Positions 1,204 to 4,090 of a stretch of 64,000 nucleotides of DNA are shown piece after piece. Location of the stretch: the NCBI GenBank assembly GCA_903937385.1, contig CAIZZF010000001.1:1-64000 (forward strand), given 5' to 3'. The notes under the pieces are model-generated. The model did not search any database, had not been told where the DNA came from, and saw nothing but the letters and a program-made list of their open reading frames with translations. The position numbers and the translations under genes are program-made. Position 1 is the first letter of the stretch. Every line of letters starts with the position of its first letter. The stretch comes from an uncultured Holophagaceae bacterium. Its GTDB lineage: Bacteria > Acidobacteriota > Holophagae > Holophagales > Holophagaceae.

Positions 1204-2142
1204 TCAGGCCCAGTCTGGCTCCTGGGCATGCGCCTTCAGGCGGTCCAGATCGAGCACCTGGTACCGCCTGACGCTGAGGCGATGAAGGATGCCCTCTGAG
1301 ATCAACTGGCTGATGGCCCTGGACAGGGTTTCCGGAGCGATCCCAAGGGCCTTGGCAAGGGTTGCTGAAGCCAAAGGCAGTGTGACGAAGGTGAACTCTG
1401 CCTTGGTGGGCCCCTCCTTGACTAATGCCAGCAAGGTGGAAGCGACGCGGGGAATGGCACCCCGCTGACTCAGTTGGTCCACCACCTTGAACACTTCTCG
1501 GAGTCTGTTGGCGAAGAGCTTGAACATCAGGATGGCGATGGGGCCATCCTGGACCGCCTTGAGCAGATCGGACCTCTCCAGGACCCGGGCTTCGAGATCC
1601 TCCAAAGCTTCCACCGTGGTGGGATAGCCGGAACCATCGAACAGGGGCGGGAAGCCCACGATCTCCCCTGGTCCGCGCATACAGGTCGGGACGCTACGCC
1701 CCGACGGAAGCCTCCGGGAAGCCATGATCCGCCCCCGGTCGATGACGATGCACCGCTCTGCGGGATTCCCCCCTTGCCAAAGAATGGTCCCCTGCTTGAA
1801 TCGCCGCTTCTTCAGGAAGGGGGCCAGAAGACCAACCAGGTCCTGTGCCAGCCCCTCGACCGGGTTGGGTCCCGGTCCCCCCGGCGATCCTGGTTCAGAC
1901 TCGGATTGGATTAGGACCTTGGCCTGGACAGTGGGCCGAAGATTCCGGGACCGCCCTTCCGAAGGTGCGATGAAGCCCTTGTCGGAGAGGGCCCTCAGGT
2001 GATCTCTGGCAGTCGCGACCGCTTTCCAGCCGAAGTGCTCGGCAACCTCACGGTAGGTGGGAAACACCCCCCGCTTCTCACAGTCGAGCAGGTGGTTCAG
2101 CAGGGTCCGCTGAATATCGGTCAATGGAGGTATTTGGACCAT
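1204..2142 (-). CDS. Regulator: LexA-type winged helix fused to Crp/Fnr cNMP-binding and HTH domains
   Basis: This 312-residue protein carries two DNA-binding modules. Residues about 5-70 match the LexA DNA-binding domain (TDIQRTLLNHLL, then FPTYREVAEHFGW and HLRALSDKGFI). After a Pro/Gly-rich linker, residues about 90-200 form a Crp/Fnr cyclic-nucleotide-type beta barrel (FKQGTILWQGGNPAERCIVIDRG). The C-terminus (about 240-305) is a Crp-type helix-turn-helix with recognition helix PETLSRAISQL; the E-x-x-S-R pattern is the one FNR uses to read TTGAT. The four-Cys cluster of FNR is not visible, so the signal is unknown. It lies upstream of chrA on the same strand with a perfect FNR box between them. 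No LexA protease domain is present. The start ATG lacks a clear Shine-Dalgarno sequence. Confidence 0.85.
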   Translation of the reverse strand: MVQIPPLTDIQRTLLNHLLDCEKRGVFPTYREVAEHFGWKAVATARDHLRALSDKGFIAPSEGRSRNLRPTVQAKVLIQSESEPGSPGGPGPNPVEGLAQDLVGLLAPFLKKRRFKQGTILWQGGNPAERCIVIDRGRIMASRRLPSGRSVPTCMRGPGEIVGFPPLFDGSGYPTTVEALEDLEARVLERSDLLKAVQDGPIAILMFKLFANRLREVFKVVDQLSQRGAIPRVASTLLALVKEGPTKAEFTFVTLPLASATLAKALGIAPETLSRAISQLISEGILHRLSVRRYQVLDLDRLKAHAQEPDWA

Positions 2143-3493: not shown

Positions 3494-4090
3494 ATGTTGG
3501 TTGGGTACGCGCGGGTTTCCACAGTGGACCAGAACCTGGACCTTCAGATCGAGGCGCTCCAGCAGGCGGGGTGTGAACTCATATTCACTGACAAAGGAGT
3601 GAGCGGTTCCAAGTTTCCTAGCCTCCGCCCAGGTAGCCAGGAACGCCCAGGCCTCCAGGAGGCCATGTCACAGCTAAAGCCGGGTTGGACTCTCGTCACA
3701 TGGAAACTCGACCGCCTGGGCCGTGGCGTGAAGGGCTTGGTGGCGCTGGTTGGCGAGTTGGAATCCATGGGTTGCGAGTTCCGAAGTATTACAGAGTCGC
3801 TTAATACTTCGTCTCCGGCTGGACGCCTGTTTTTCCATATTCTGGCCTCGATGGGCCAGATGGAAAGGGAACTCACAATCGAACGAACTCAAGCAGGCTT
3901 GCAAAGTGCGCGTCTCCGAGGCCGGGTTGGCGGTCGGCGTAGGAAGATGACTGCCGGGAAGATCCAGTCTGCTAGTCAGCTTCTGGATTCAGGCATGTCG
4001 CCGCGAGATGTGGCCATGAGCCTCGGGGTCTCAGTGCCGACCCTGTATCGTTGGGTCCCGGCCAGTGGCCGAAACCTGAACCAGGCTTGA
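3494..4090 (+). CDS. Serine site-specific recombinase (resolvase/invertase family)
   Basis: This is a small serine recombinase of 198 residues, the usual length for Tn3 resolvase/Pin-type enzymes. The N-terminal catalytic domain opens with GYARVSTVDQN, in which the serine of ARVS is the nucleophile. It continues with WKLDRLGRG (catalytic arginines) and FFHILASMGQMERELTIERT (long E helix). The C-terminal helix-turn-helix (about residues 150-190, SQLLDSGMSPRDVAMSLGVSVPTLYRW) binds DNA. GGGGAG precedes the ATG by seven bases. Repeated TCAACTCGTATTC motifs flank the gene and are probable target subsites. No transposase accompanies it in the window. Confidence 0.93.
   Translation: MLVGYARVSTVDQNLDLQIEALQQAGCELIFTDKGVSGSKFPSLRPGSQERPGLQEAMSQLKPGWTLVTWKLDRLGRGVKGLVALVGELESMGCEFRSITESLNTSSPAGRLFFHILASMGQMERELTIERTQAGLQSARLRGRVGGRRRKMTAGKIQSASQLLDSGMSPRDVAMSLGVSVPTLYRWVPASGRNLNQA

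Follow-up and report, generated by a model that had tools for sequence, protein, structure and literature searches.

A gene near the start of a contig from an uncultured Holophagaceae bacterium (GenBank assembly GCA_903937385.1, contig CAIZZF010000001.1) raises the question of what a single regulator does with two DNA-binding modules from different families, and which DNA sites these modules might serve. The window analyzed here comprises the first 64,000 nucleotides of the forward strand of that contig. The gene lies at 1204–2142 on the minus strand and encodes a protein of 312 residues, whose open reading frame begins with ATG and is preceded by an in-frame stop four codons 5' of the start.

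Architecture and origin of the fusion regulator

The original prediction, made from the sequence of the window, was that in this one chain a cNMP-type domain separates two DNA-binding modules that belong to different families, and both Pfam and the conservation of relatives bear this out. The full-length protein matched LexA_DNA_bind (PF01726) at residues 6–66 (1945–2127, minus strand; E 1.4e-11; 44.4 bits versus a cut-off of 23.7), cNMP_binding (PF00027), a beta-roll domain, at residues 113–198 (1549–1806, minus strand; E 1.4e-14) and HTH_Crp_2 (PF13545) at residues 232–304 (1231–1449, minus strand; E 7.3e-15), each match exceeding its curated Pfam cut-off. All three domains, including the LexA-type winged helix, were matched in 12 of 12 aligned family members. 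When residues 1–75 were searched by themselves they matched LexA_DNA_bind at 3.4e-12 and also solved LexA structures, which excludes the objection that this segment is not LexA-like. The FNR-like E-x-x-S-R that had been foreseen in the Crp-type recognition helix is present at residues 271–275 (PETLSRA) of the window protein and in its closest relatives; in the family alignment, the position of E271 is substituted in distant relatives and S274-R275 is invariant. The best profiles for the regulator were FixK, FtrB and FnrL and the structural matches were to CRP, FNR, HcpR and DNR, while none of the NCBIfam profiles compared reached an equivalog cut-off.

An AlphaFold model built from 12 relatives (mean pLDDT 75.9, pTM 0.44) places in order a winged helix, a low-confidence segment at residues 80–93, the beta-roll, a 40-residue helix at residues 200–239 (1426–1545, minus strand) and a second winged helix. 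The long helix is likely to be a dimer helix, as in the Crp family. Solved winged-helix proteins superpose on approximately residues 3–85 of the model (Z ~11) and solved Crp/Fnr proteins on approximately residues 95–311 (best 4ev0, Z 13.4, rmsd 7.1 over 200 residues), although the relative placement of the modules in this predicted model is not reliable.

A second copy of the regulator, 96% identical, is located on contig C19 of the same genome (3.68 Mb, 30 contigs). The comparison of the window and C19 copies gave a dN of 0.020, a dS of 0.318 and a dN/dS of 0.064; the differences are mainly synonymous, which shows that selection acts on the protein. A survey of the architecture in genomes identified 13 copies of the fusion gene family in 8 of 77 Holophagaceae genomes (this one counted), with identities down to 33%. 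The second copy, the low dN/dS and these relatives together rule out that two genes were joined by a sequencing error or that the gene is a pseudogene. The other families of the class that were searched yielded no fusion. Among 396 genomes of the phylum, matches outside the Holophagaceae span the Crp part only, and in five such reading frames that were inspected the LexA part is absent. When 84,980 species genomes were scanned for close relatives, one locus was found, in the Holophagaceae. Viral and plasmid origins were also considered and rejected: no relative was found in viral contigs, and of 452 plasmid records that matched, not one reaches 80% coverage of the protein.

The source of the N-terminal part was addressed by searching residues 1–71 alone against the 77 genomes. 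This search found the fusions and otherwise, in each Holophagaceae genome, approximately one ORF similar in length to LexA; in the regulator's own genome this ORF is a LexA with its C-terminal domain. Since by itself it finds only fusions and ORFs of such length, the N-terminal part appears to be LexA-derived, and is most simply read as a derivative of LexA. In a pairwise alignment, residues with which E. coli LexA contacts DNA are substituted in the corresponding helix of the regulator, for example N41 by A43 and E44 by R46 (the residue comparisons used the E. coli CRP, FNR and LexA sequences). Across the 12-member alignment, W39, A43, R46, G56, R66 and R69 are invariant in the LexA-type part.

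Conserved sites at the two ends of the gene

A palindrome had been noted at 2158–2169 as a possible site for the LexA-type part. The palindrome is real; it is better read as a gapped dyad of 18 bp at 2154–2171, ACCACAC-ACAT-GTGTGGT, and the 12-bp register was dropped because in relatives the arms are conserved but the spacer is not. This candidate LexA-type autoregulatory operator occupies positions -29 to -12 relative to the start codon, its nearer edge being ~11 nt from the ATG. The pattern ACCAYAC-N4-GTRTGGT is common to regulator starts in relatives, and in seven of them, all in the distant group, it overlaps the ATG; at or over the start codon, such a dyad would be in a place suited to repression. 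The homology between the window and C19, which begins at window position 1, stops precisely at the dyad's outer edge (2171 in the window, 8696 in C19), and the two copies have identical dyad arms and different spacers. A perfect 12-nt inverted repeat at 2168–2204, TGGTTACCACTC-N13-GAGTGGTAACCA, overlaps the same outer edge in the window copy only.

The core CCAYAC-N4-GTRTGG occurs exactly at only two sites in the 3.68-Mb genome, one before each regulator copy, and the full dyad pattern at five places in the 77 genomes, comprising four regulator starts and one position inside an unrelated coding sequence. Allowing up to one mismatch, the core was no commoner in the regulator's own genome than in a reversed control. 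In per-locus shuffles against the dyad consensus, p was <= 0.003 in 10 of the 13 loci, 0.04 in both L006 and L017 and 0.34 in L014; as the shuffle consensus was drawn from the same loci, the genome-wide uniqueness is the stronger evidence for the dyad. In the three G066 loci (L007, L014 and L017) the dyad is degenerate, and in L006 it is weak. At L014 the regulator lies directly behind ChrA on the same strand and may be without a promoter of its own. A relative in MAG G069 (L006 / L008, G069:C93) has an in-frame TAG in its cNMP-type domain and no clear start-site dyad, and may be decaying or misread. SOS control via the cell's LexA was rejected on the grounds that the exact dyad is found in the genome solely at the regulator gene.

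The other site, a candidate Crp/Fnr-type box TTGATC-N2-GATCAA, lies between the regulator and chrA at 1177–1190, with the sequence TTGATCGGGATCAA as originally claimed. An exact match to TTGATCNNGATCAA occurs in the genome once only, at this position; the second copy has one change, and near-matches to the box occur elsewhere in the genome. Every one of the 13 loci has an equivalent of the form TTGA[TC]C-N5-CA[AT] at the regulator's end, with p <= 0.025 in each by per-locus shuffling; it begins at +13, at -4 or, in one locus, at -38, counted from where the stop codon ends. In eight relatives the TTGATC left half-site overlaps the TGA stop codon, so that part of the conservation of the box could be coding, and their right half-site is usually weak. 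The box faces the downstream chrA/efflux operon and not the regulator's own promoter. We make no claim that it is a class I activator site, because L007 does not conserve the TAGTAT found ~46 bp from the centre of the box, and no convincing sigma-70 promoter was found in a search at both sites.

Neither site was found in the controls, which comprised five relatives of the Crp part that are not fused and two further Crp-type genes from the genome. Given that result, the start-site dyad and the downstream box travel together with the LexA part. It is important to note that shared ancestry confounds any match between variants of the helices and variants of the half-sites.

Neighboring genes and a proposed mode of action

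The likely target of the downstream box is a gene for a chrA-type chromate transporter on the minus strand (1–1097, GTG start at 1097), which is truncated by the start of the contig. It is collinear with C19:9770–10951, whose product matches Chromate_transp (E 3.3e-81); this counterpart is 93% identical and, within the region G000:C19 8696–18171 (L018), runs on into an RND/HlyD/OEP operon. An IS21 istB gene follows that operon on C19. The next gene after the box is co-directional in 12 of 13 loci and encodes ChrA (3), an RND pump (1), an OEP (4) or an FmdE-type protein (4), representatives having been assigned by domain calls and the remaining loci from how similar their initial residues are. 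The exception is L014, where the downstream gene is convergent. The gene clusters around the regulator include ChrA, RND, HlyD, OEP, an FmdE-type protein, an ArsP/SaoE-like permease, an ArsE-type thioredoxin, an ArsC-like protein and ArsR, and among the non-fused relatives two adjoin arsM and two adjoin SaoE-like permeases. These neighbors point to a likely role of the regulator loci in metal or metalloid defence; that the signal is redox or a metalloid is a guess based on the same genes.

Beside the regulator, the window encodes on the plus strand an HU/IHF-family protein (2360–2653, E 1.6e-28) and a serine resolvase (3494–4090, E 3e-39), which suggests that a mobile element has its edge here. 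At 2210–2271 there is a 62-bp unit whose ends (AATCCCAAG / CTTGGGATT) are inverted, and 41 bp of that region recur at G000:C5:122556–122596 with 95% identity; the unit is possibly a small palindromic repeat element.

We think it probable that the protein is a dimeric Crp/Fnr-type regulator that has acquired an N-terminal winged helix derived from LexA and that uses its two pairs of DNA-binding modules at different sites. The LexA-type pair would bind ACCAYAC-N4-GTRTGGT at the start of the regulator gene and repress its transcription. The Crp-type pair would bind TTGATC-N2-GATCAA at the end of the gene and control, probably activate, the metal/metalloid efflux operon that follows (ChrA, RND pump, OEP, FmdE-type protein). 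In such a protein the Crp dimer helix would stand in, as dimeriser, for the missing C-terminal domain of LexA. The architecture, its conservation, the sites, their positions and the neighboring efflux genes are read directly from sequence; we infer how the two DNA-binding domains are assigned to the sites, whether each effect is positive or negative, and the dimerisation.

Other explanations of the same observations have to be weighed against this proposal. The LexA-type part may have a role in folding, oligomerisation or partner contact, with the dyad bound by another regulator, a view encouraged by the replaced contact residues and by the fact that the dyad is not a textbook LexA box. We regard it as somewhat unlikely, however, in that the exact dyad occurs in the genome at the regulator gene only and accompanies the fusion, not Crp relatives without a LexA part, and the replaced positions are invariant in the family, as expected if specificity had changed and then been kept. 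Were both sites instead read by other regulators of the cell, the dyad by the true LexA and the TTGATC box by another Fnr-type protein, the fusion would act elsewhere. The genome does encode a true LexA and other Crp-type proteins, and the scattered near-matches to the box would suit such an arrangement, yet on reading the promoter region of the genome's lexA no such dyad was found, and the exact dyad is nowhere in the genome except at the regulator gene, all of which makes this explanation highly improbable.

A further possibility accepts that the fusion reads both sites and adds that a single dimer bridges the two operators, forming a ~980-bp loop around its own gene and physically coupling autorepression and efflux control through one sensor domain. 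Distinct sites do flank the gene (centres 2162.5 and 1183.5) in an order that is kept in relatives, and the segment between the modules is of low confidence in the predicted model, as flexible linkers are. Simultaneous binding is nonetheless not required by any observation, and since the length of the gene sets the distance between the sites, their spacing provides no test. As such, we consider the loop unlikely.

Comparison with known regulators

Like members of the Crp/Fnr superfamily, in particular its Fnr/FixK/Dnr-like branch, the fusion regulator has a cNMP-type domain, a long helix, HTH_Crp_2 and a TTGAT-N4-ATCAA-type box, and in 12 of 12 family members cNMP_binding is followed by HTH_Crp, both above cut-off. 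It differs from that branch in its additional N-terminal LexA winged helix. In a pairwise alignment with CRP, it has F and Y at the cAMP contacts E72 and R82, and compared with FNR it lacks the cysteine cluster ahead of the sensor domain, there being no cysteine among the family-invariant columns. Given these replaced residues and absent cysteines, neither classical signal would be expected, and cAMP in particular is unlikely to be the signal. The nearest relatives of residues 97–305 outside the family are the Crp-type regulators L061–L065 of other Acidobacteriota, which have metalloid-type neighbors (arsM, SaoE-like permeases) and differ from the fusion in having no LexA part and neither conserved site.

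The likeness to the LexA SOS repressor lies in the N-terminal winged helix (PF01726), the candidate dyad of LexA-like geometry at the gene's own start and the autoregulation that would be expected from it. The regulator departs from LexA in that its Pfam matches include no C-terminal S24-type peptidase/autocleavage domain, residues 113–304 being of Crp/Fnr type, and in that its dyad is not at the genome's lexA. To our knowledge, the sequence of the dyad also differs from known LexA boxes. No described LexA–Crp/Fnr fusion was found in the searchable open-access literature, which is weak evidence of absence; a survey of LexA_DNA_bind among transcription-factor families (PMC7017128) names no Crp fusion in the part of it considered here.

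Both halves of the regulator thus come from known families, and what is new is their combination together with two matching conserved sites. If the fusion does act at both, it would be a natural example of a regulator that addresses its own gene through one DNA code and its targets through a second, separate code, and each site would then be free to evolve without disturbing the other. The idea is directly testable because the sites are short sequences that hardly recur in the genome. It would also provide a clear case of a LexA winged helix on a new dimer scaffold and inform how domain fusions rewire regulation.
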